Shown here: positions 13,516 to 58,084 of the stretch, one piece after another
Layout: every line of letters begins with the position of its first letter
Position numbering within the stretch: position 1 is the first letter of the stretch
Assembly: GCF_011397635.1 (NCBI RefSeq)
Contig: NC_064760.1
Location: 33,065,856-33,129,855 of the forward strand
Length of the DNA stretch: 64,000 bases
Direction of reading: 5' to 3'
DNA from: Epinephelus fuscoguttatus
Lineage: Eukaryota; Chordata; Actinopteri; Perciformes; Serranidae
Notes under the pieces: model-generated
Told to the model about the DNA's origin: nothing
The model's database searches: none
The model's input: only the letters and a program-made list of their open reading frames with translations
Translations under genes and position numbers: made by a program

Positions 13516-16500
13516 TCAGTCCTCCTCTGTGTCCTCTCCTCCAGTTATACATGACAAGCGTCTGCTGAATGCCATGCTCTGTGGTATCTCTGGCTTGCTC
13601 AGTCGCCTCCTGAATTCATCCGTTGTGAAATAGTACATGAGGGGGTCAAGGCTGCAGTTCAGGCTGGCCAGGCAGAGCGTGACAGGGTGACATCTCAGAA
13701 TCAGGTCCCTGAAGGTGCAGCTGCTCACAGCATTGGCTTTAACCAGGAAGTCCAGGGGCATTGTGACATGGTAAGGAACGAAGCACACTAGGAAGACCAC
13801 AGCACAGCTTAGCACCATCCTTAACGCCCTCCGCTTTTCCCCTCGGTCAGGAATTGCCCCTGCTGTCGGCTTCTGGAGACTCCCTGCGGTCAGACAGGTG
13901 CAGGCTAACACCAGGATGAGGGGGATGATGAAGCCCATCAGCTCGGCTAGGGCCAGAAGGGCCCAGGCTGCTGGGATACTGACAGTCCTCATGGGCAGCT
14001 CTGAGAAACACACCAGGTCATCTGCAGTGGGGGTGGCGCTGCCCCCTGAGGTGGGAAAACTTGAATGAGAGTCTGATCCACTGCTGGGGTTCCTCAGCAG
14101 AGGGAAGGGCAGGCAGCACAGGCAGACTAACAGCCAGCCAAGGGCACATATGAGCAAGTCCCCTTTTCTCTTGGAGGAGTTATACCTCAACGGACACATG
14201 ATGAGCTCACAGCGACGCACGCTGACACACACCAGGAAGTAGATGGACGCGTACATGTTGACGTACTTCAGGTAGAAGCAGATCATGCAGAGAGGGTGGC
14301 CAAAGGGCCAGGTGTTGTTCAGGTAGTAGTAGATCCGCAGAGGCAGAGAAAGAACCTGAAGGGAACAGAGAACATCAGGATGGTTGTAGAGGAACTACAA
14401 ACAATGTGGTAGATGCCCACTTGATATGGATAATGACCACTGAAACTTAATTTTTGTTTAGACTGAACTTTCGAATGCATTTGCACACAGCTTCTCAAAA
14501 TCATTGGACATTAAATACCCTTGCAGTTTGAACTGTAGGTCGAACAAAAGAAGCAACCTGATGATGTCGCTCACAACTTTGGCTTGCAATTGGCATTTTC
14601 CGTATTTTTTTTACATTTAGGTTAAACATTATCACTTCATTTTAACCCTTTAAACAGAATATAAACAGTCGAATAAGGTTTATGACATAACATACGTTAA
14701 TGTAGTTGGGGCTTATTGTCTGAAAAATTCTAAGACCAGTATGTAGCTGCTGAGATAGTGGGCACGTCACAGGTTGTATTAAATCAAAGAACACTTGGTG
14801 GTTGGCTGCAAGCAAAACCATACAAATAATCATTTTTCTCTCGATCTGGGTACAAAAAGAGTCAAAGAACTGTTGGTACCACTGGATACTGGGTTATTTC
14901 TGTTGATACCTTAAGGGTTTTGAATACTGATACCCAGTCCTAAGGCCTATATAAAGGCATTTTAAGTGTTTATTAATGTAGTTTTCAGCACCTATAACTC
15001 CTGTGAAGTACCCTGGAAATCCAGAGTTCTCACGAGAGCACAATTTGAATTTGCTCAGCTAGTCATTCTGGCAATCAGTAATGATGCTCATTACCCATGC
15101 CCTTGGAGCCGAGCTGCACCAATCACATCGGTGTATCTGATATAGGCGAGCCAGAGGTGAGCTAAACAGATGACGACAGCGCTGCGACATCGAAGTCCGA
15201 AATCAGTCAGTAAACATTGCAAGATGGCTACGGATGAACACCAGTTGTTTGAAACGGCTTTGGCCTCTACAATGAACGAGTTAGACTTAACTTTTTCTCT
15301 TAAAGAGGAACAGAAGACGGCGCTTGAATCTTTCCTTTGCAAGAAGGACATTTTTGTTTTTTTGTCGACCGGATATGGCAAGAGTGTAATCTACGGGTTA
15401 GCTCCGCTGGTAGCTAAGCTCTGAATACGTCACCCCGTGTATTGTTCTGATTGGTCGTAGTGTTATCCAATTACGTGCAGTGATATTTTCAAATGTATGC
15501 TTGGTGCCGCCCCTCGAGTTGGGCCATTTGCATTACTCATAGCCAGACCCTAAATCTTTCTAGATTTGGGTCTGGATTTCCAGACTACCTGTGAAGCATC
15601 TTAACTGGTGTATAAACAAATAATAAATTATCTAAAATATGACACAGTTGTAATGGTCATAAATATTTCTTTGACAACTGAGCAAATTCCATCTGCAGAT
15701 GAAAGCCATGAAATATGGCTGAAAGCTCTGCCAGAATTCTAGTATGTGGGGCTTTGGTGAAGATGTCTTGATTTGCACACGTGTGAACAGTTGACAGATG
15801 TTTAAATATCTAGTACAGAGGTGTCAATCATACGGCCCGTGGGCCAAAACTAGCCAGCCAGAGGGTCCACTCTGGCCCGCTGGATGACTCTGCACACCTT
15901 ATATTGGTGCATTTGCATAGGATAAGATGTGCAAGGTTTGCTGCTGCTTCAGAAGCTTTTTCACTTGGACCAGAATACACATCTCTAAAACAACACTGAA
16001 TACTTATTGTGGTCATATTTAGAGATATTAAACATTGTTCAAAATGTTGTCAATAAGCAGCCTCAGTAGGCCACAAAAGAATCTGTATCAAACTTCCATC
16101 TTAAAACAATATTGTAGAAACCCTATTGCGAAGGCTCAACCAAAACGTTTGATTGGTAAATGGTTTATAAGGCAGAGGATAACTTAACCTGCTTCCTTAA
16201 AGCTGCCACCTTTGTTTGATGTGGTGATGTTAGCATCACTGCACAGTGGAAATACATGGAAAAAAAATTACATGTTTATGAACTTGTACTTCTTTACATT
16301 AAAAAAAAGGGAAACATTTGGAGGTGTTGTTATTTTTGGATCATTCTACAATGGTTTTACTGTTCTGGCCCACTGGAGATCAAGCTGGGCTGTACGTGGC
16401 CCATGAACTAAAATTAATTTGACACCCCTGGTCTAGTATATAGGTTTAAGTAACAGTGAGGTTGCAAAACTGAAACTCCTCCTGTGTGCCAAGCATGTAG

Positions 16501-17010
16501 GAGACATTCGGTGGTCAACATGAAAACACAAAAACACAAATGCCCCATATAGCACCAGTGTTTTATTTTTCACTCGGTGTAAGAGGACCTGCTCTGCATG
16601 TAGATATATATATAGCTCATGCTAAAGTAATGAAAACACACTGATTCTCACTTTCAGGTGATTCTACACTGATGGAAACATAGTTATGAATGTTAAACAT
16701 CATCTCCTATGCACTGGGCCTCTAATATACAAAGTAGAGCGGTTTTTCAATTGTGTTTGTTCATATATCATTAAATGTCATTACAGCCGAGTCATCAAAC
16801 ATTCATTAACTGTTTACACACCAGTTATGGATGCTTCATAGAGAGGAGGTTATAATTGTTGACAAATGCATTACACACTTAAAAATGTGCTTATATCTGC
16901 TTGCAATTGCATTATAGTGTGTTATAAACAATCTAGGAAGTGATACTTCTTATAAATGCTTATTAGGGCAGTTAAAGTAAAGTGTGACCAGTTTAGATAG
17001 ACAGAAAGAT

Positions 17011-17073
<63 letters not shown>

Positions 17074-17297
17074 AGTCATGAGAGGCTTTTTACCTGCAGG
17101 AGGTCGGCCACAGCCAGGTTCATCATGAACACCACAGCCTTCTTGGTTTCTTTGATATAAACCTTGAACACCCATAGTGCCAGCACGTTTCCCAGCAGGC
17201 CCGGCGCTAAGATCACACTGTACACCACCGCATACACACGGTGCTGGTACAACTGGAGATCTTCACTGCTTTGACAGCTGTGGTTGGCAAAGTTCAT
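13516..17297 (-). CDS. gpr174: Lysophosphatidylserine receptor GPR174, two coding exons
   Basis: Seven-helix G-protein-coupled receptor of the P2Y-like delta branch; mammalian GPR174 binds lysophosphatidylserine and restrains lymphocytes. Exon 1 is 17297-17094 and exon 2 is 14355-13516, phase-0 intron, 347 residues (human 333). Family features: sequon NHS at 5; TM1 with GLLGNVLALWVF; TM2 ending LAVADLLQ just before the intron; WPFGHPLC with C91; VRR at 114-116 in place of DRY, as in human GPR174; TM6 CFVPYH; TM7 LDPLMYYF. The second extracellular loop is enlarged and Ser/Gly/Thr-rich. The first in-frame ATG (17297) has A at -3. The intron holds a RecQ-fragment element, a hAT element and a GATA array 20 bases past the donor. 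Transcribed in the same direction as p2ry10 and lpar4. Confidence 0.93.
15009..15588 (+). mobile_element. TIR element carrying a RecQ-like fragment, fuller copy
   Basis: Lies in the gpr174 intron, opposite to the gene. The ends form inverted repeats: CCTGGAAATCCAGAG on the left and TCTGGATTTCCAGAC on the right. CTGTGAAG flanks both ends (15001-15008 and 15589-15596), which would be an 8-base target duplication of hAT or P type. A 66-codon frame (15224-15424) encodes a helicase start with a Walker A motif. No transposase is visible, so it looks non-autonomous. The classification is open. Confidence 0.6.
15224..15424 (+). pseudogene. RecQ-like helicase N-terminal fragment in a mobile element
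   Basis: A 66-residue frame beginning MATDEHQLFETALAS in a good start context (CAAGATGG). It contains LKEEQKTALESFL, resembling the helicase Q motif, then FVFLSTGYGKSVIY, a Walker A (motif I) of RecQ type, and ends at TGA after PLVAKL. DEAH box and later helicase motifs are missing. The frame sits wholly within the inverted-repeat element and is repeated at 12519-12800, so I read it as a captured or relic helicase start, not a host gene. Function is doubtful. Confidence 0.6.
15816..16430. mobile_element. hAT-type non-autonomous element
   Basis: 615 bases bounded by CAGAGGTGTCAATC and TTGACACCCCTG as inverted ends, with flanking ATCTAGTA (15808-15815) and GTCTAGTA (16431-16438), an 8-base target duplication with one change. 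The inner ends carry the CGGCCCGTGGGCC and GTGGCCCATGAACTAAAAT phrases known from hAT elements in fish. No transposase frame remains. It sits in the gpr174 intron. Confidence 0.8.
17003..17073. repeat. GATA microsatellite beside gpr174 splice donor
   Basis: About 15 GATA units, the last 20 bases from the gpr174 intron donor (GT at 17093-17092). On the transcript it reads as a TATC array early in the intron. Confidence 0.95.
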
Positions 17298-18689
17298 TTT
17301 AAGCGTGTAACGGTTAAGACAAGCTGCCTTGTGAACCAACAGGAAGCTTGAATTAGTAGTAGAGCCGCTTGTAGTTCGGTGACGGGTTTGTTTTAGCGTC
17401 CATGCTGTCCAGTGTTGAGAGGAGTAGTTTGTGCTTCTTTAAGTTAAAGTGTGTGTCCAGCACTGGGAAACGGTTGATGTGTCAGACCACAGTCAGTCCG
17501 AGGAACACAGCATCCTGACAGAGCACAAAGAAAGAGTCAACAGGATGATATTACTGTCACTGTAAATTCACTTTTAATGACAGCATGTTTTGCATGTTGC
17601 ACGGATAGATATCAGGTTTTAAGAAAGAACCTTTCTCTATCAGACACACACGATATTGTACAGCGCTCAGTCACATACACACATGCAAACACACCCACAC
17701 CTGTCAGCCAGGCCCGCAGCTTGTTATACTATCTGTTTTAACAGTGCATGACATATAAAGTCATTTGCGTGTGATTGCAGCTTTTGCAGTGGCATTTACA
17801 GTAAATATGCAAACCCACAGAGAAGTTGATGCTACAGTCTCCCACGTAATGTATCTCCACCTGCAGGGCAGCCAGCAATAAGCCAGCGTGCACCGCCTCG
17901 GAGCAAGGCATCACTGAAACTGGCGTGGTTAGCATAGTCAGACCAGGCGTGTGGTTAACGGACCAGACAATATGAAGAATGAAATGTTATGTGGTGATTT
18001 TACAGTTTCCAAATAAGTGACACCTACATTACTATTTCTTTGTCACAAGAGCTCAAAATGAAAGCAATGTAAGAAGATTTTAAAAAGCCCTAAACCCTGA
18101 TCAGCTTCAGATATTGATTGTAACTTTGAATGGAAACGCACAGTAATGTCTGGAGCTGAGTTTCCAGCTTGTAGGTGTCATCCACCCACTGTTGTAAACA
18201 GTAGTAGGTGTATGCCGGTTCAGCACGGGGTTCCTCGCTTTTATTTTTAAGAACACACAGCGAGCTTTGAAGATTCGTCCTTGCTCTAACAGTTTTGTCT
18301 CTTTTTATTTTCCAATTTGACTTTGACTAAACATTTACTAGCTAATTATGGAACAGGAAGAGGAGAGATTGTTTAGTTTTCATTGTTCAGGTCTTTCACA
18401 CATACAGTATTTTGACAGACATGCCTTTAAATCTTTTGTCATCACAGGAGAGTTAATTTAACATGTTAGAGCGTTGTCACTTAGGGAAGTTTGATGAGCA
18501 GCAAGGGAACAAAGTGACGTAAATAGTATCTGTTCAACATCTGTCTAAACCCTTTTGCGGATGTACTTTTAACAGAGTCAGTACGTTACTGTTTTAAGTA
18601 TTTTAAGGGAATTGACACTAACTACACCCAGGATGAGGTTTTTACTATTTATAAGTTTATTAACACAACGCCCTCTTTACAAGCTAAGT

Positions 18690-22602: not shown

Positions 22603-24919
22603 CTATCTGTCATCTTTAGCCGTGTCATTCTCCTTAGGAAAAAACAAATTAGCATCTGAATAATGCTGCTCCCTGTCTGAGCAGCTACTCTCCATGCTCG
22701 TCATTCTGTGCTGTGTGGGACGCTGGATCGGGGAGCTGATCGGGGAGGAGAGGAGCGAGGCGGTGAAGGAGGAGGTGCGCCTGGTGAGGTGCAATCTGAA
22801 CTCTGCATTCAGAAAGTAATAAAGCAGAGGGTTGAGGCAGCAGCTCAGGCTCGCAAGGCACAGAGACACCGGGTGGAACTGACGCACAGCCAGCCTCGTT
22901 GCACAGTGGGACACTACGTCCTGCGACACCATCAGGTAGAGCAGGAAGTTGAGATGGTAGGGGGCAAAGCAGAACAAGAAGAGGGCAGAGCAGCTCAGCA
23001 CCATCCGTAGAGCGCGCCGCTTCTCAGCGTTTATCTGCTTTTCGTGGTATTTATCTGTGTGACCATTGGAGGTGACTGACTGGATTCGGCTGCGTGCTGA
23101 GGAGTTGAGTGTGGTTGAGTTTGCATTCTCATTTTTTTGGTTGAGGGAGCGGGTGATGCGGATTGAGCTAAAAGTGATGCAGGCCAGAGGAATAATGAAA
23201 CCAAACAGCTCAGCAAGAGTTATCATGGTGACAGCCAGAGAGAGGGACAGACGACGCATGGGCAAATCCTTAAAACAGCTGACTTTGGTAGAGCTAGGAC
23301 TTGAGCCTGGCCCGAGGCTGCTGGGGCTCATACTTGTAGGTGGCACATGAAGCTTGGTGTAACCTACCTGCTGGGTAGAACTGGCATACAGAGAATAGGA
23401 CATGTTATAGACTGTCTGTGTACTAATGCTAGGACTGGTGGAGCTGTTACTGCTGCTGCTCCGCATCAGGATGAAAGGTGAGCAAGCCAGACCGACCACC
23501 ACCCACACTATAAGACTGATCAACAGGTCATAGCGCCGCCTCCACCGGCGAGCTGAGAATGGGTCAAGCAGGAAGACACATCTCTGCACGCTGATACACA
23601 CCTGGAAACAGAAAAAAAAGTTGCATGAAAATTCTCAGCCACATTCAGAGCCACATGAGGTAAATTTGTTCCAAGAACAGAGAAGAAGGGAGGCTTAGAC
23701 ATGAAGGACTTCCTGTTATAAATTAACATTTGACTCCTTTTAAATAGATGAATTAGCTGTGGTTTGAGTTCCCATGCTCCCTCTAGTGTCCTCACAGAAT
23801 TTAAGCATTACTTTTCCTTTACTGCCTGCTTACCAAAAACACTATAGCAGCGTACATGTTGAGGTATTTGAGGTAGAAGCAGAACAAGCAGATGCCTCGT
23901 CCGAAGGGCCAGGTGTGTGTGAAGTAATAATATATCCTGAGGGGCAGAGAGAGGATGTGGGCCAGGTCTGCTAGTGCCAGGTTTATCATGAAGATCACAG
24001 CCTTGGTCTTCTTACTGTGGAGCAACATGCAGAAGAGTTAGCCATGTGCAGACCCGTCTGTGTGTGTGTACTTGTACTTATGACATAGTGGGGACAGGAC
24101 CACATATTTAACAAACAGTGTGAGGACATTTTTGGAGACTGAGGACATTTAAAGTGAAGACATTTTGGCCTGTCCTCACTTCTTCAAAGGCCATTTAGAG
24201 GGTTAAGAATCGGTTTTAAGGTTCAGGTTACAATTAGGGGGCCACATCAGGGGCCCGGGCCCAGATCAGGGTACACTTGAACCCATTGTCCTGTTTGTTT
24301 GATTAGTGTCAACACTGTGTATTTTACCCAGGCACAGTATGCCACTCTGTGCCCAAGTCTGCTTGAAAAAGGGGTCTGGAGTACAGTACGGTGTTTGGCA
24401 GGCATCAGATGTAAACATCAACTATACCAAAACACGGAAGTGGACTGCTTTTAAAACAACTTCAAGGAGTTTTAAACTGGTTATAAACCAGTCTCAGTTC
24501 AATACGGATGCCTATTCATCAGAGGGCAGTGAAGCTGGGGAAAAGGGCGGAAAGCTCAGAGCCCGACAGCAGTGGCTCCTCATCTGACCATGAGTAGAGC
24601 TTCCCCTTGCTGGTCAGCTGGTCCCCACAGATGACAGTCTCTGCAGCAGTGTCTGTTTGTGGCGCCCTTTTAGAAAATGTAGCACAACAAAAATGTTATG
24701 AAGATGATGACGCAAGTTTTCTTTGGGTACGAAACAACATCAGTAGGGTGAGAGCTGAGTGGCGTGTGAGTGGAGAGGAGTAGCGAATCGTACTTGGACA
24801 TGATATGAATCAACTGTACCTAATACGAAAATGGCAATGCCCTAGTTTGGAGTTAGGGTTAGCCATTTAGATGTGGAGATAAGGGGTTAGGGTAAGGGGC
24901 TAGGAATGAATTAATGAAT

Positions 24920-24956
<37 letters not shown>

Positions 24957-25140
24957 ACCTAATGTGTCTGCAGAGGACCCAGAGAGCAGTGGTGTTGAGC
25001 AGCAGCCCAGGGATGAAGAGCAGCAGGTAGAAGTAGGTGTACATCTTATCCATGCGCTGGTCCCAGCTGGTCATGTTGTGTCCACAGGAGGAGTTGGCCG
25101 GGGATGCTCCAGACATATTCAGAGTCATTTCCTGCCTCAT
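22603..25140 (-). CDS. p2ry10: Putative lysophosphatidylserine receptor P2RY10, three coding exons
   Basis: Delta-branch rhodopsin-like receptor. Exon 1 25140-24959, exon 2 24014-23834, exon 3 23601-22603; introns of phase 2 and phase 0; 453 residues from the first in-frame ATG (human 339). ATGs at 25128 and 25116 are alternative starts with better context. Diagnostic segments: LLLNTTALWVLCRHI joined to SKKTKAVIFMINLALADL, very like human P2RY10; LSLPLRIYYY; WPFGRGICLFCFYLKYLNMY; VQRC in place of DRY; CFAPYHLNF in TM6; LNPLLYYF in TM7. Extra length comes from an extracellular loop 2 of about 61 residues between TM4 and the conserved Cys (sequons NSS and NMS), a longer Asn/Ser-rich third intracellular loop, and a Ser-rich tail. 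A GT array abuts the exon 1 donor. Confidence 0.93.
24060..24245. repeat. Dispersed repeat in p2ry10 intron
   Basis: GACATAGTGGGGACAGGACC, GTGAGGACATTTTTGGAG and GGTTAAGAATCGGTTTTAAG in this order match a common teleost repeat that often ends in TTAGGG-like runs. Related TTAGGGTTAG wording occurs again at 24850-24905. Confidence 0.5.
24922..24954. repeat. GT microsatellite at p2ry10 splice donor
   Basis: About 16 GT units ending three bases before the donor GT (24958-24957) of p2ry10 exon 1, so the intron starts GTAAACACACAC on the transcript strand. Confidence 0.95.
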
Positions 25141-25217
25141 ACAAACACTGATGGCATAACTTAACAGCAATTTCCTGTGATCAGTCCTTCATCATGTCAC
25201 TCACACACCCTGAACAC
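25141..25217 (-). other. p2ry10: p2ry10 5' untranslated part of exon
   Basis: A strong acceptor, TTATTCTCTTTCAG, ends at 25218, so the exon holding the p2ry10 start begins at 25217. A short upstream frame (ATGATGAAGGACTGA) lies within this leader and could damp translation. Confidence 0.55.
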
Positions 25218-31079: not shown

Positions 31080-32289
31080 TCAGAACTGACTCTCAGACGT
31101 CTTTGACTCTTTCCCATTGCTGGCCAGAGTGTGTGTGTCTCTAGGGAGAGTGTTTCCTGTGTCTTGGGTCTCAGTGTCGCTGCGGGGGATACTCTCAGGC
31201 CGGGAGCCTGTCCCTTTGCCTCCCATGGTCAAGCTTTTCTGGAAGCTCTCTGATGTGAAGTAGTAGACAACAGGGTCCAGGCAGCAGTTGAGGCTGGCCA
31301 GGCACAGAGTGATGGGGTAAAGAGTTCGGGCAAAGCGCTCCACAGCGCAGTTAGCCAGGGCCTGGGTCCGCACCAGGGCATACAGGAAGAGGATTGAGTT
31401 ATAGGGGACGAAGCAGATGATGAAGATGCCCAGATGGACCAAAATCATCCGTAGGACACGTCTCTTGCTGTTACAGCCGTGACCAACAGTCATTGGACGC
31501 CGCAGCGTCCGCAGAACAAGCGAGGAACATACCAAGTTGGCCAAGAGGGGGAGGAGGAAGCCCACAATCTGTGAAATAAATAAATTGCATAAGAAAACTT
31601 TATGTAAATGTGGAACATCTCTACTATGTTTCTGGTTTCCTTAATAAAAGAAGTGTATAAATGGTGTATAAGGTAAAATGTGAGACTCTCAGAGTCTGTC
31701 TCTCCTCACTCACCTCGATGAAGATGGTGATTTTGGATAGGTAGGTCCTCCAGGTGCTCTTGGAGAAGCCCTCAAAGCAAGTGGTGGCTCTGTTTGTGCT
31801 GTTAATGGTGGAGAAGAAGGTCACTGATATTCCTCCCCCTACGATGGTCAGCCACACAGCGGCACACACCAGCGCCGCGTTCCTGCGTGTGCGGATGGAG
31901 CGGGAGCGGAAAGGGTAGACTATCGCCAGGAAGCGGTCTACACTGATGCAGGTGAGGAAGAGCATGCTGCCGTAGATGTTGGTGATGAAGGCTGTTCCTG
32001 ATACCTTACACAATCCATCTCCGAATGGCCAGTGGCGGTTAACGTTGTAAAAGACCTTGAATGGCAGCGTAAAAACAAATACCAAATCTGATAACGCTAA
32101 GTTAGTCATAAACATTGTGGTCTCGTTTCGCATCTTCATCCGGAAGCAGAACACAAAGAGGGCCGCGCAGTTGGTTATCAGGCCCAAGACAAAGACCACA
32201 CTGTAAACCACCGAGTACAAGTTGTACTTGAAGGAGTCGTCAATGCCACAGTCCTCCATTCCGGTCTCGTTGAGCACCAGGCTAGCCAT
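31080..32289 (-). CDS. lpar4: Lysophosphatidic acid receptor 4, two coding exons
   Basis: Receptor for lysophosphatidic acid, coupling in mammals to Gs, Gq and G12/13. Coding exons 32289-31714 and 31568-31080, phase-0 intron at the start of TM5 (IFIE then IVGFLLPLL), 354 residues (human 370). Features: sequons NETG at 7 and NST at 163; TM1 [15 protein letters not shown]2 [23 protein letters not shown] with C94 pairing with C171 (TTCFEG); DRF at 118-120 with AIVYPF; TM6 [12 protein letters not shown]7 [15 protein letters not shown]; a Ser/Thr-rich tail. The start has a strong context (AGCATGGCT). The acceptor TCCTATTCTCTCCACAG ends at 32498, so this exon starts at 32497 and a leader exon lies further upstream, probably at 36333-36640. 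Confidence 0.95.
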
Positions 32290-35096
32290 GCTGACGGCTT
32301 AGACAGGGAGGGGGGCTCTACGAAAAAAGGGTGCACCAAAGCTGTAAGGAAAGGGGGGGAGTTGGGCGGATATCTGAGGACAGGAGGTGTCAGCAGGGGA
32401 TCCACCAGTCAAGTCTCCTCCAAGTCATCATGGACATTCAGACACACAAATGGAGGCAGACAGTCAGGATGCACGGTTGCAGGGCTGGTCAGTCATCCTG
32501 TGGAGAGAATAGGAAAAGCACACGGTCACTTCCTCACTATAAAAGTTACAGCAAAGCAAACAACTCCAGTTGTCCATAGGATGAAGCATATGGTCTATGC
32601 ACACGCCTTATGCCATTATACCTAAGGTATACCTTTGTTACATTATTCTTTATAACAGTAATCAGTGTGTCTAACATCCTTTACAGTGAAGTAAAGTAAA
32701 GCAGCATTCAATCTAAATCAGTTGTAGAGAGGACAGAAATATTAGAGACGCTTGAAAAAACACTTTTTAGCTTGTTATTGGTAAAAATTTCAATGTTTTT
32801 CACAGCTGTAACATTCAGTGTATCCGCATAGCTGTGAGCGTGTGCGTGCATTTTTGCAGTTCATGTCTTATCTGTCAGTATAAATAAAGTCCCATCTGTC
32901 CACAGGGGTTTAGTTCACATGGTAGTGTGGCACGGGGCCCTCAGGCTGTCATCAGGACTATGAGTGGTAAATGACAGCCAGATACAGAGACATGTACTGT
33001 AGATTAGGAGGTAAAACACACTTCATCTTCTTTCAATCATGAGCTAATGTTAAAGAGCTCAATGTAAAATCCACTTTAAACCACAAAAGTATCTGAGACT
33101 AACTCCAACTAGAGAAAGCAGCAGGAAATCGTCAGCCTGTTGGTACAAGAGCAGAGCTGCTCCCACCACCACAGAGCAGTGTTGTCATGAAACACAATAG
33201 ATTTGCTGTCAAACATGAACAATTAGAGGGATTTGACATTGTGAAAGACAATTCATTTTCTAGTTATTTACTCAAAACAAGATGTGTTTGTGAGCGTGTG
33301 ATGTCAAAACAGGAACTAGATTGTTTTGAATGTGTTGAGTTTGAGCGCTAACTATCTTATTTGTCACAGTGTTATATGAACACACTTGATATTCTACATC
33401 CACAATAAAGTTAATTGTTTTATTGCAGAAGTGATGCCCAAAGATTTGTTGATCACCTCATAAAAATGCACATTGTGTGTTTCATAATGAGCACTTCTTC
33501 ATGTTTCAAATCATCACATCTGAACTTTTTCAGGGCTATAGGCAAAATAAGACACAGCTGTTCTGAGTCTGTTCTAAATCAATATGTCTTCTCAATAGTG
33601 CCCAACATCGTAGTTTGTTGTACTTTGCTCTGCTCCACTCTTAAAACTCTAGCAAAACAGGTATGTTGGCATGACTACGCATCTGTGTGGACTTAATAAG
33701 ACGTTAGATTCAGGCAGATACGTTGGTCTCTAGTGACTCGTTAGAAGAAATCGGTTGGAGTGGACACAATGTCACACTGAAGATGGAAAAAGAGAGTAAC
33801 AAGATGACAATTCCTTCTGATTTCAGGCAATACTTCTCAAATTTGTTGCTTACATTCACATAAAAACTTTAACTTGATTGATTGAGATTACACAGCTAAG
33901 TACACAGTATATCACACCAACTATTTTTAGATTTGTGTTTTAATAGGGCAACAGTAGGGCTGCGTAGGTCTTTGAGTGTTGCAACATACCATTATATATG
34001 AGGCATTGTGGAACCACAGAGGTGCACCCACCTACAAATCATATTTGACACATAAGGGATCATGCTTGTTTGCTACCTCAGCAAAAATCTCATCATCATA
34101 TTTATGTGTATGTGTGTGTGGGGTGGGGTGGGGGGGTTCAGTGTAAATTATATGCAAAACTTACTATCCTCACTAAAATTGCGACTCATATCGCAATTAC
34201 AATATTTTTCAAAATAATCGCAGTGTGATATTTTAGGGGTTTTTTTGCATATCATGCAGCAGCTCTAGGCCCCAAAAAAGCCGACATGTAGAATCCTTGC
34301 GACTATAGCATCTTTCAATTCCTGAACACGTCAATGACTCCCAGCCAAAACAGAAGTGAAGTAACACCTCTCTCAATCTAAAAAGGAAATTCAACACATC
34401 TATTTCAGTGGTCAGGCTCTGCACAGCATGTAAACAGTTTGTTTTCTGTGGCCCTGGACAGAGGTTTCACCCTAGGATAAGTTTCCTAACAAATCCTGCA
34501 TTAAAAACTGAAGATCTGGAGTTGAAAACATGGCTTTTAACCAGGCATGGAGAAGGTGGGATGAAAAACTTTTTTTGGAGCCTGACTGGTGTTACACACT
34601 AAAACCTCCAGACATCTCGGCCTGTGCTGAATTGATTTTGACCCTTCTTTTATCTTTCTTTTAAAATCTCTCTCCCAAGTCCTCCAGCTTTATGGGAGTG
34701 CAACTCTAAATTGCTACAGCACCGGATTTAACAAGCTAAACTGGCCTTATCTTGGGTTATGCAACAGAGCTAAAGCGGCAGCGAGGTGGTCGGCCCTTTG
34801 GCATCGAGTGTAAAAATCCTGAGTACCCCTGGAAAGATTCACTCTATCGGTCTTTTCACCACACAGACACACACAAACACACACAAAGGCAATGCTGTGA
34901 GTGTAAGCAGTCCATCAGCCCTGTCCTGTGCCAGCTGCAGTGTGACATCTTTACTGCGTTTTCACACGCCTCCCAGAAAGCCTCCACCAGCCCTCACAAT
35001 GCCCTCACTGTACCCATCTGCACCAAACACACACTTACATATGCACAAGTCTCCACACGTGCACACACAAGCAGGCAAACACTTACATGTGCCAGT

Positions 35097-42399: not shown

Positions 42400-44340
42400 G
42401 AGTTTATCTAAGAAATGTGGTGAATAAAACTGAACACTGATTCTTTGTGTGTAGTTTTGACTCTGGAGAAAGTAAGCAGACATATCCCAGATGACCTGAG
42501 AGGTCTGAACGATTTAAAACATAGCAGCAGACCACAGATGTCCTTTGGCCCTAAATCATTCAGTGCTTTATAAACAGACAGTCGTATTTGGAAATCAATT
42601 CTTTGACAAACAGGAAGTCAGTGTTAAGACCTCAGACTTGGAGTGGCATGATCCACTCTCCTGGTCTCAGCAACAACTTTCTGAATCAGCTGCAGCCGTC
42701 TGATTGATTATTAAGGAGACCTGTAAAGACACGGTTAGAGTAGTTAAGGCTACTGAAGATAAATGCATTGACAAGTTTTTCAAAATCCTACTGAGACATA
42801 AGGCCTTTAATCCTTGATATATTGTTAAGGTTCTGATAGGACAGACTTTGTAATCGTCTTACTGTGTTGAAATTCAGGTCTGAGTCCATGACGGCACTGA
42901 GATGTCTGGCTTGGTTTGTGGTCTTTATTCATGTTACAGATACTAAGCACTGGTTTTTAATTGTTTTTATTTGGCCCCAAAAAATCATTTCAGTTTTATC
43001 TCTGTTTATCTGAAAGATGTTTGGGTGCATCCCATCACTGATTTGTTCAATGCACTTATTCATCACTTGTATGGGACCATAGTCATCTGGTGGTATTGTT
43101 ATATTAATCCATGTATCTGCTGCATAATTATAGTGAGACATTTTATTGTTTTCTATAATCAGAGCTAGTGGGAGTATGTAGATGTTCAACAGAAGAGGCC
43201 CAAGAATGGAGCCTTGGGGAACGCCACAACTGTATTCTTGTATGCTCAGATGTCTAACTGTCATTTAGATAGGATTTAAACCAGTTTAGCACTGAACCAG
43301 AAAGTACCACACAATATTCCAGTTTGTCTAGTGATATGTGAGATCTAATAATACTAAGACTGAAACTTTTCCTCAGTCTATGTTTAAGAGGGTGTCATTC
43401 AAGACCCAAACAAGAGTCTGCTGTGGTGTGGTCGAATCTGGATGGGAAAACATTATAAAACTTGTTTAGGACTATTAAGGTGTTCAGTTGTTGAAAAACA
43501 GCAGTTTCAATGATTTTACTTAAAAAGGAGAAAGTTTGATATGGGCCTACAGTTGTTCATTAGTGACACATCTGGATTGCTCTTTTTTAAGAATGGCTTA
43601 ATAACTGCAGTTTCAGGTGATGTGGGAAATAGCATGAGAATAGAGAGGTGTTGACTATTTGCAGAAGATCTGATCAATCACTGAAACCTCAGAAATGTTA
43701 AGACCCCTGAAGATGATCCACCGTCATCCAGAATACAAGACATTTCTTTCGTGCTCCTGTCCTGGAGGTTGTCAATACAAATGTTAAAATCACCAACAAT
43801 AACGTCACAGTCAAAGTCAAAGAAGATGTCAGACAACCTTTCAGCAAAGTTATCAATACATTTTGCACAGTATATAGGTGGCCTATTGCAAATGCTTAAA
43901 AGTGCAGTTCGACAAGAACAATTCAGCTGAAAGCAACATACTCAGAAGAGGAAAAGATTCTGCTTGTTTTAGAAAGAATTATAAAACTCCCACTCTTTTC
44001 TCATGCACTCTAGCTTCGCTCTGAATTTGGGATGCCTTGACTCAATAAAACCTGCTGCACTGTTATCATGGTCTGACCTAGTTACAGTTCAAAACATAAA
44101 AACAAAATTGTGCAGATGATAAAATCATGAATTAGACATGATTTGTCTTCCAAAGATCTTATATTTAAATGAGCAAAACTTAGTAAGGTAAACGCACTTT
44201 GCCATTTTAACAGTTTATGTAACAGGGCTGAAGATGAGGAATGGATATAAAATTTGATTAATTTGCAGAATCGGTTAAGTGTACCCTGTTTCCATATGGT
44301 ATAACCAGATTGGATTATAGAATAGAGAAAAGAGGAATAG
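42400..44340 (-). mobile_element. Decayed L2-clade LINE (endonuclease and reverse transcriptase)
   Basis: Read on the minus strand, protein fragments appear in the right order. AHLNIRSLEDKSCLIHDFI is the endonuclease start (about 44165-44220). VIVGDFNICIDNLQDRSTKE is endonuclease core (about 43740-43830). NNCRPISNF marks reverse transcriptase onset (about 43540). CGVPQGSILGPLL with YAADT in place of YADDT lies at 42960-43240, then INRDKTEMIF. A C-terminal LRSSG-type segment follows near 42470-42560. Stops and frame changes separate the pieces, so it is inactive. The order and wording fit L2/Rex-like LINEs of fish. The 111-codon frame at 42929-43264 is its best-kept part. Confidence 0.85.
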
Positions 44341-50153: not shown

Positions 50154-50159
50154 TTTATT
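50154..50159 (-). terminator. Polyadenylation signal of receptor-like gene
   Basis: TTTATT on + (AATAAA on -), 48 bases after the stop codon of the receptor-like gene at 50207. The short spacing supports that frame as a real last exon. Confidence 0.5.
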
Positions 50160-50206: not shown

Positions 50207-51102
50207 TCAGTGAAAGGAGCTTTTTCTCCTCTGTGGTTTGCTGTAGAGGACAGCATAATGCAGCCATAAATTTACCAGCCATAATGACCTCCTCAGGCAG
50301 GAGGAGAAAGCTGAAAGGGAGAGAAGAGGCTCCAGGCCCAGAGAGGAACTCTGGGGATTTTGTAGCGTTGGTGAATAAGTCTGAGGCCTGGAGTCTTTTA
50401 AAAGTTTTGAGTGAAGTGAGAAGAACAGTTCTAGCAGCACAATTATCCAGACCAGGCTGCAGCTGAGCTGAGCCCAGTAAGAAGTCCTGAATCTGCGAGT
50501 CTGCTGAGGCCAGCGAGACACCAGCGTGGCCTCCAGTCCCAGCAGCCCCAGCAGGAGCAGAGAGGCCAGGTGGTGAGCATCAAGCAGCTGCTGACAGAGC
50601 ACACTCACAGCCTCCCTCCACCAAAAGGAACTCCCCTCCCTCATGTGGCCCATCTCAGTCTCAAAACCCACCTCCTCCTCCTCTTCCTCCATCCACCAGG
50701 CTCCCAGCTGAAGCATCCAGCGCAGCAGCAGGAGACTGTCTGCGAGAGCCAGCCGGCCCAGCAGCACAGTGGAGGGCTTAGTGGAGATGTGAGGGGAGCA
50801 GAGCAGTAACAGGGCCCGCAGGCTGAGCACACAGCCCACCAGTAGGGGGAGGCCTGCAGCGTGGGGGAACAGCAGAACCATCACCAGCTTCAAAAATAAG
50901 AACCTTCGCAGCCACCCTCTGGACGCTGGGACAACTCCTTCTTTGACTGAGCCAGGCCAGCACCAAGAGCCCATCTCCCAGACTGACTTCAAAACTTGGT
51001 TTGATCTGCAGAGTTCAACACGTGGACATTAGCTCTGTACCTTGATTTGGACAATCTCTTTAGTATAAACATTCAGAATCTCTGCTCCACCCATTAAAAG
51101 GT

Positions 51103-51147
<45 letters not shown>

Positions 51148-51781
51148 GGATTATCTCCACCACATAACTCTCTTTAAAGCTTTCTTCTTCATTATGAGTA
51201 AGCCAGTGTTGAGTAAGAAGGCAGAGGCCCAGGCAAGAAAACAAGCCATCAGTAAATTCCTCAGTTTTATAGGAAGCATTTAACATGACTGAGGTTGAAC
51301 ATCACCGAGCCTTACCTAAGCTAACTTTCACTGAAAATGCATCTCTGGGGCATAAATTTGATTTACTTTAAAATGAATAACCCTCATAAATCTTAAGGAA
51401 CATTAAAATATTCATGAAGGAACATAATTAAAGTTTAGTTTATGTATGACAACTATTAAAAAGAGTCAGAAAAGTGTGTTTTATATCAGCCAGCATAATA
51501 ATATTTACATTTCACTGAATTTGATACATGTAACTCATCTTAATGTCTCTATTACCATATACCATATGGAACACAAACATGCGTCGCCTTAGCTCTCTCC
51601 TCCCCACTACCCCTCAGCTCCAAAGATGACCTCTGTGTTATTCCTAATATCTAGAGGAGTTCTTCATATTCAGAACTTCATAGTTAAACATGGATTCTAC
51701 TCATCTATCTGCCTTTAAACAAAGCTTTGAATCTTGTCTGTGTGGGACTCACCTGCGTTCTGGCAGGAAGTTGAACGTCAT
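50207..51781 (-). CDS. Unrecognised receptor-like membrane protein, two exons
   Basis: Proposed exons 51781-51753 and 51005-50207. Donor CGCAG then GTGAGTCC; acceptor GAACTCTGCAG with a CTAAT branch-like site. The join is in frame and gives 275 residues starting MTFNFLPERR. At least five hydrophobic segments: about 45-80, 89-113, 142-172, 184-207 and 234-264. Traces of a rhodopsin-like receptor: LALAD in the second segment (95-99); a Cys at 147 opening the third; LEATLVSRWP where DRYxxxxxP would lie; a Trp at 196 in the fourth; and NLWLHYAVLY, spaced like NxxLDPxxYY of TM7. Nothing matches TM5 or TM6, and the DRY and NPxxY residues are lost. A Glu run sits in the first outer loop. It may be a diverged relative of the nearby delta-branch receptors or a decaying one. 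Internal ATG 50974 is an alternative start. Confidence 0.55.
51103..51144. repeat. CA microsatellite
   Basis: About 21 CA units within the proposed intron of the receptor-like gene, about 100 bases from its acceptor. Confidence 0.95.
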
Positions 51782-52034
51782 CGTCCTGCTTCACCTGGAT
51801 GTGGGCTGGTAACTTTTTACCTCCATGCCAGTGCCTCCTCTCACAGAGGCTGAATGAGTGTAAGAGTATCTCTCTTCTCTTTATTAGCGCTGGTTGCTTC
51901 AGCTCTACTGGTTCCCGCTCGGCAAATGTCATCATGTCTCGTCTGGAGGAGAGCCAGACTGCATCTGACTCACGTTGGTGGAGGATTTGTGCCTGAGGGT
52001 TTTCCGTGCATCATTGACATCAGTGTAAACCTGT

Positions 52035-57010: not shown

Positions 57011-58084
57011 TTTACCAGTTTGACACGAAGGGGACAGAAGTAACAAGGTTTCCAAGTAATAATAATAATGTTTATTAAATGTATGAACTAAAAACAAGAT
57101 GTAAGAAACAATGTTCGTTGGCAACCAGAAAGACTTATGTGACAGTCCCAGGCGAAGCTAAAACTTGAGCATACAAAAAATGTGGCTGTGTAAGTTAAGA
57201 GCTATTAGTCAAGGGGAGGGTTGCAGTGTGCCAAGCCAGGGGAAATATTAGGGGAAGACCAACTCAAGCCAATGCAAAAAAAGGGGAATGTTGTTACATA
57301 CACACACATGCGAGACACACAAAACTAAAGATATGTGCAAGGTGAGAGCACAGCAAACAACACTCAACCGTGCAACAGGAGTGGATGCTTGGAGAGCTGG
57401 TCCCCGGCCTAGACAGGCCCTAACCCTCCCTTCCTCAGTCAGGGTTCAGCCTAAAAGCAAAGACAAAAAAAAACAAACAAACAAAAAACCCACATTCAAA
57501 TGGGCAGGTGTGAGATAGCACTGTTTCCTCTACTGTTGACACAACCTGTTACAAACTCTCAGAAAAGATAAATAGATTAAAAGAATAATCCTAGCACTTG
57601 ACAGTCATGAAATGGGTTAAATCAGGTCTCACTACAGAAAAAGACAACAATGTTGTAATTTTAAATAGTGCAAAAAAAAACAAAAAACAAAACCTCATAC
57701 CTCCTCAAACACCTTCTAGAGCAAATAGTAGGCGTTTCAGGAAATAAACCCAACCCAAGGTTTGCCCTCCTTGTAGCCCTACACTGGCTAAACAACCCAA
57801 ACTAGATTTTAATCTTGGACAGCTGCAGGCTACAAGAAGTGACAAGGAACTTATGGAGCTTGTGGCTGGATATGTGGTGGATGACATGTTGCCTATCTCC
57901 ACAACTGACTCTCCATCTTACAGATAGATCCTTGGGGAAAAGACTGGTCACAGGCAACAGAAGACCCTCAGGTAAAATAATCATTTGCAAGCTATTTAGC
58001 CTTAGCTGCACTTACTGGTGGCAACCTTGACATTCACACGGAGGCGCACATGCAATGTCGGAATTTTGAGGAGAAAGGGTGCAA

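Follow-up and report, generated by a model that had tools for sequence, protein, structure and literature searches.

The described systems closest to the gene candidate reported here are a truncated receptor form, two orphan clades and those class A receptors that belong with LPAR4/6, CYSLTR and P2RY10/GPR174. NMUR2S arises by splicing as a shortened form of neuromedin U receptor 2 and is reported to be able to brake whole receptors by pairing with them (PMC4552561). The likeness to the candidate lies in the missing helices and the absent ligand response reported there, whereas NMUR2S is a six-helix splice form of a working gene and the candidate a separate, diverged gene with four helices (PMC4552561). 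Orphan clades of fish and vertebrates have been placed near LPAR4/6 (GPR202) and near P2RY10/GPR174 (GPR203). These are orphans of the receptor group of the candidate and occur in fish, but, unlike the candidate, the receptors newly reported in that study are described as complete and as carrying conserved motifs (PMC6504862). No paper describing the candidate gene was recognised among the partly seen open-licence papers to which the literature search was confined, which makes this a weak negative.

With the class A receptors the candidate shares a TM1–TM4 profile match, D2.50, the Pro after TM3 and W4.50, and it sits, as such receptors do, in an itm2a–P2Y10-like–LPAR4-like–CYSLTR1-like cluster. 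It differs from them in being without TM5–TM7 and in the loss of 14 of 20 near-invariant TM1–TM4 residues, including N1.50, C3.25 and R3.50. Judged from its sequence, the candidate frame is genuine and derives from a receptor, and it is both truncated and extremely diverged; its parent kin would be the LPAR, CYSLTR and P2Y10 receptors of the rhodopsin class. The reading we prefer, with a probability of roughly 0.4, is that of a protein-coding, receptor-derived but non-coupling gene, in which TM1–TM4 were kept, the frame was long maintained by selection and a short unrelated tail follows.

The window, that is, the whole 64 kb stretch of DNA analysed, covers positions 33065856-33129855 of contig C9 in an assembly of 1.05 Gb and 26 contigs, and its genes point to a bony fish. 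The genes are arranged in the order itm2a-like gene, two P2Y10-like receptors, LPAR4-like receptor, candidate and CYSLTR1-like receptor, names that we assigned presumptively (itm2a-like by eye). The earlier note was right in placing the candidate near lpar4, the LPAR4-like gene lying approximately 18 kb away. The intact CYSLTR1-like receptor, approximately 12 kb from the candidate, is found at C9 33129862, just beyond the window and on the opposite strand, where it is open and whole; this complete gene ruled out a cysltr1 remnant as the identity of the candidate. No second genome copy of the candidate was detected at E ≤ 1e-3 (7 places scored), and the 15 kb examined on contig C12 between lpar6-like and cysltr2-like receptors held nothing resembling it. 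In the right-hand part of the window, a Pfam search covering two of the six frames of 52-64 kb returned 0 families.

The surrounding receptor genes differ in their exon structure. The LPAR4-like receptor (31080..32298, minus strand) has an intron of approximately 100 nt opening TM5 (GAG/GTGAGT, phase 0), and each of two lpar6-like genes at other genomic positions (L013, L014) forms a single long open frame. In the P2Y10/GPR174-like receptors (13516..17438 and 22603..25188, minus strand), the coding part is interrupted by introns, an arrangement unusual among receptors of this type. The first receptor is split behind TM2, the second both behind TM1 and where TM3 ends. LINE reverse transcriptase and endonuclease-like pieces were recognised by eye at 42929..43941 (minus strand), and approximately 60 kb past the CYSLTR1-like gene lie exons of what we take to be an endothelin-receptor-like gene (L007-L008, C9 about 33189147-33196250).

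The minus strand of the window contains an open frame of 273 codons from stop to stop (50207..51028). For three spans, 1000 dinucleotide shuffles apiece produced no frame of this length (longest 258, 243 and 215). The long open frame reported in the earlier note is thus present and beyond chance, and the small ATG-bearing exon proposed there does splice in frame to exon 2, yielding one intact reading of 275 residues. With regard to a repeat origin of the frame, comparison of 48-54 kb with the window produced three short repeats, none of them inside the frame. The features of the proposed gene and its product are as follows.

51753..51781, minus strand: proposed exon 1, predicted from sequence, with the ATG; 29 nt, ending at the donor CAG/GTGAGT
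51006..51752, minus strand: proposed intron, 747 nt, GT-AG, GTGAGT...CTCTGCAG
50207..51005, minus strand: exon 2, with the remaining part of the reading frame of 275 residues up to the TGA stop
50154..50159, minus strand: possible polyadenylation signal AATAAA (AATAAA background on the same strand 0.69 per kb)
51753..51935, minus strand: upstream frame from the ATG at 51935, in another phase, covering the proposed start and crossing the donor
50705..50857, minus strand: putative TM1-TM2 region, profile domain 1, residues 64-104, 10.3 bits, containing LALAD
50414..50599, minus strand: putative TM3-TM4 region, profile domain 2, residues 157-211, 12.2 bits
50210..50413, minus strand: tail of approximately 68 residues, no receptor match, a single weakly hydrophobic stretch

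By a weight table, also used for the other donor score given below, the donor of exon 1 scored 8.18, and a score of at least 7 was reached by five minus-strand sites in the 64 kb. The AATAAA begins at 50159, 48 bases past the stop codon, as previously noted. The proposed start call is weakened, as had also been suspected, because of upstream ATGs, among them that of the frame from 51935, which overlaps this start. Read across the same splice junction, the frame from the ATG at 51935 would extend to approximately 136 residues in the other phase.

The GC content of exon 2 was 0.558, compared to 0.317 and 0.42 in the flanks and similar to the 0.48-0.556 of nearby receptor exons, and its codon score of 0.133 was higher than that of all 1084 presumed-noncoding windows of 801 nt (maximum 0.047). 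However, a reverse frame with 13 stops scored 0.183, and the final third of exon 2, with a score of -0.013, was without coding signal. For these two reasons, the composition supports an exon but does not single out the candidate frame. The final 75 codons of exon 2 are also open in a second frame.

Receptor descent was assessed with a profile built from 32 receptors of this genome, consisting of the neighbours A and B, the LPAR4-like and CYSLTR1-like receptors and 28 of 30 loci kept from 150 matches, where L012 and L020 were left out as duplicates. The candidate reached 25.2 raw bits against this profile, while the top of 4000 block-shuffles was 8.2, and the similarity over TM1–TM4 thus exceeds what composition gives. 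When the window was scanned in six frames with the same profile, the candidate was matched with an E value of 5e-6; every better match was a receptor exon, and the first non-receptor segment thereafter came at 0.13. The first matched domain corresponds to TM1-TM2 and the second to TM3-TM4, in the order of a receptor. A two-sequence BLASTP comparison with the LPAR4-like exon gave 13 identities in 44 positions over TM3-TM4 (E 1e-4, which applies to this single comparison). In the pairwise comparisons with the 32 receptors the top z was 8.1, with no receptor standing out. Receptors also made up four of the six matches to solved structures at E up to 10, occupying the top ranks (GPR15 0.017 and 0.061, LPAR6a 0.16, GPR17 0.93); the reversed candidate matched two enzyme chains and the shuffled candidate none. 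No relative was found in the prokaryote contigs searched. A derivation of the first four helices from a rhodopsin-class receptor is well supported by these alignments, and the truncated, atypical receptor proposed in the earlier note holds for TM1–TM4, by the four- and 32-receptor profiles and the window scan.

The divergence of the candidate from its putative kin is considerable. Among the 20 columns conserved in at least 80% of the 32 receptors over TM1–TM4, six are retained, including D2.50, the TM3 Ser, the Pro following TM3 and W4.50, and the lost anchors include the TM4 Pro in addition to the three named above. At a conservation of at least 60%, 12 of 40 columns are retained, a number reached by 0 of 147 circular shifts (mean 3.0, maximum 9). 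The LALAD motif and TM4 Trp described previously were both found, and the DRY motif of a working class A receptor is indeed replaced, its place at the end of TM3 reading E-A-T with Ala in the R column. A Cys opening TM3, which had also been claimed, could not be confirmed: the C3.25 column holds Ser in the alignments, with a Cys three residues further on. The putative second outer loop is without any Cys, so the pair of C3.25 and loop Cys of a working class A receptor is missing as well. A tree built from 33 sequences and 148 columns gave the candidate the longest branch (2.78, the second-longest end branch being 1.14), and it was placed beside an unrelated-looking partner with a bootstrap of 26.

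The similarity to receptors ends after TM4. The last 70 residues scored -2.2 against the 32-receptor profile, with 984 of 2000 shuffles equal or better, and no match to the tail was reported with the four-receptor profile. Four helix stretches exceeded the hydropathy cut of 1.2, while the NLWLHYAVLY segment stayed below it (highest value printed 0.88); the earlier designation of this segment as TM7-like is therefore unsupported. A search for TM5–TM7 over 32.3-50.46 kb, on both strands and in all frames, gave nothing convincing, the best match (E 0.22) spanning only profile positions 44-73 of 155. The absence of TM5 and TM6 was thus rightly noticed, but TM7 could not be found either, and the candidate should be described as lacking TM5–TM7. 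The seven helices of a working class A receptor, with NPxxY in the last part, are not seen in it.

To what extent the frame could have survived without selection was explored by simulating neutral drift from the present sequence in 1000 runs, assuming one indel per ten substitutions and 80% of indels to be frame-breaking. With indels, the frame remained open in 37% of the runs at d 0.01, in 4.2% at 0.03 and in none at 0.1 or above, and with substitutions alone in 69%, 34% and 3.5% at d 0.01, 0.03 and 0.1, respectively. At d 0.4, 46.7% of the residues were unchanged. The 275 codons are open, in place of the broken frame of a long-dead pseudogene, and since prolonged neutral decay would break the frame, the candidate was coding until recently at least. 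The late decay considered in the earlier note is consequently unlikely if a long neutral decay is meant, though a very recent onset is compatible with the data. For 14 of 20 anchors to be lost, drift would have to go well beyond what an open frame tolerates, so that these changes probably arose under a kept frame. Conversely, the open frame today does not show function today, because 37% (d 0.01) and 4.2% (d 0.03) of the neutral runs with indels stayed open.

The data are equally compatible with TM5–TM7 having been lost during the most recent few percent of neutral divergence, and the noncoding appearance of the tail counts in favour of this. Almost as likely as a working partner gene is an orphan receptor that evolved fast and was inactivated only very recently. 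In such a receptor, TM5–TM7 would have been lost too recently for the frame to have broken, and the tail would derive from an intron or other noncoding sequence, now read as far as the first stop. This would account for the lack of TM5–TM7 nearby in any frame, and for a last third of exon 2 that carries no coding signal and, over its closing 75 codons, can be read in a second frame without a stop; the share of indel runs still open at d 0.01 also allows it. At 50275 lies a weakly scoring donor-like site (3.12) in phase 0, the phase in which the LPAR4-like gene is interrupted at TM5; with 77 sites on the minus strand of the window reaching at least this score, it is no more than a hint. The lost anchors and the branch of 2.78, on the other hand, place most of the change under a kept frame, so death must be limited to a short and recent time, at d 0.03 already an open frame being the minority outcome with or without indels. 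The splice sites of the first intron, moreover, are intact.

The site at 50275 could also be the donor of an intron leading to a further exon, and the neighbours A, B and LPAR4-like all have introns in the coding part. The candidate would then be a full seven-helix receptor with TM5–TM7 in a downstream exon, as in the neighbouring LPAR4-like gene with its intron at TM5, but diverged beyond recognition. We consider this improbable, as the best TM5–TM7 match remained at E 0.22 against 5e-6 for TM1–TM4, the AATAAA comes after the stop and the conserved coupling residues are absent.

Several comparisons, taken singly, gave little sign of a receptor. Pfam returned 0 families for the candidate at E up to 10, and the 7tm_1 cut-off was thus not reached. 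Structure models were poor, whether built for the candidate alone (pLDDT 53.5) or with the window receptors (59.4), and among their Foldseek matches (163 and 72) none reached E ≤ 0.001; the second model included receptor rows, and its weak receptor matches are hence not independent. Among single neighbours, receptor A was silent (428 of 4000 shuffles as good, compared to 1 for the LPAR4-like receptor and 2 for B), 13 of the 32 receptors gave a z below 2, and a six-frame scan with a three-receptor profile ranked an unrelated segment at 57806-58027 (plus strand) above the candidate, with 10.2 versus 6.9 bits. That TM7-like segment, which we take to resemble a ZBED-type transposase piece read in another frame, was rejected, as it is absent among the matches of the 32-receptor profile at E below 0.5. 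That the frame arose by chance, or codes for a hydrophobic protein unrelated to receptors, is nevertheless very hard to reconcile with a score that rose from 12.4 raw bits for the three-receptor profile to 20.6 on adding the CYSLTR1-like neighbour and on to 25.2 with all 32 receptors, matched by 0 of 4000 shuffles each time, with the colinear domains and with the length of the frame.

If the candidate is a protein-coding but non-coupling gene, as we prefer to read it, a rhodopsin-class receptor would have retained TM1–TM4, lost TM5–TM7 together with the residues for G-protein coupling, and come to end in a short unrelated tail, while selection, as the drift simulation suggests, held the frame open through most of the divergence. 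The product would reside in the membrane with its N terminus outside, an orientation that suits the acidic outer loop following TM2 and the basic stretches found behind TM3 and at the C-terminal end; placing this basic end inside would require the weak fifth helix. Without R3.50 and TM5–TM7, the usual G-protein coupling is impossible, and because these are gone the product would probably have no signalling of its own. By analogy, its most likely action, if any, would be to pair with full-length kin, restraining them or blocking the ligand site. That a receptor cut to TM1–TM4 was retained by selection specifically to partner the adjacent lipid-receptor genes without signalling itself, forming a kind of its own, is a more specific proposal and an unlikely one. 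If the half-fold has been kept under selection, the N-terminal four-helix half would be useful on its own; if the loss is instead fresh, the locus would represent ordinary receptor turnover.
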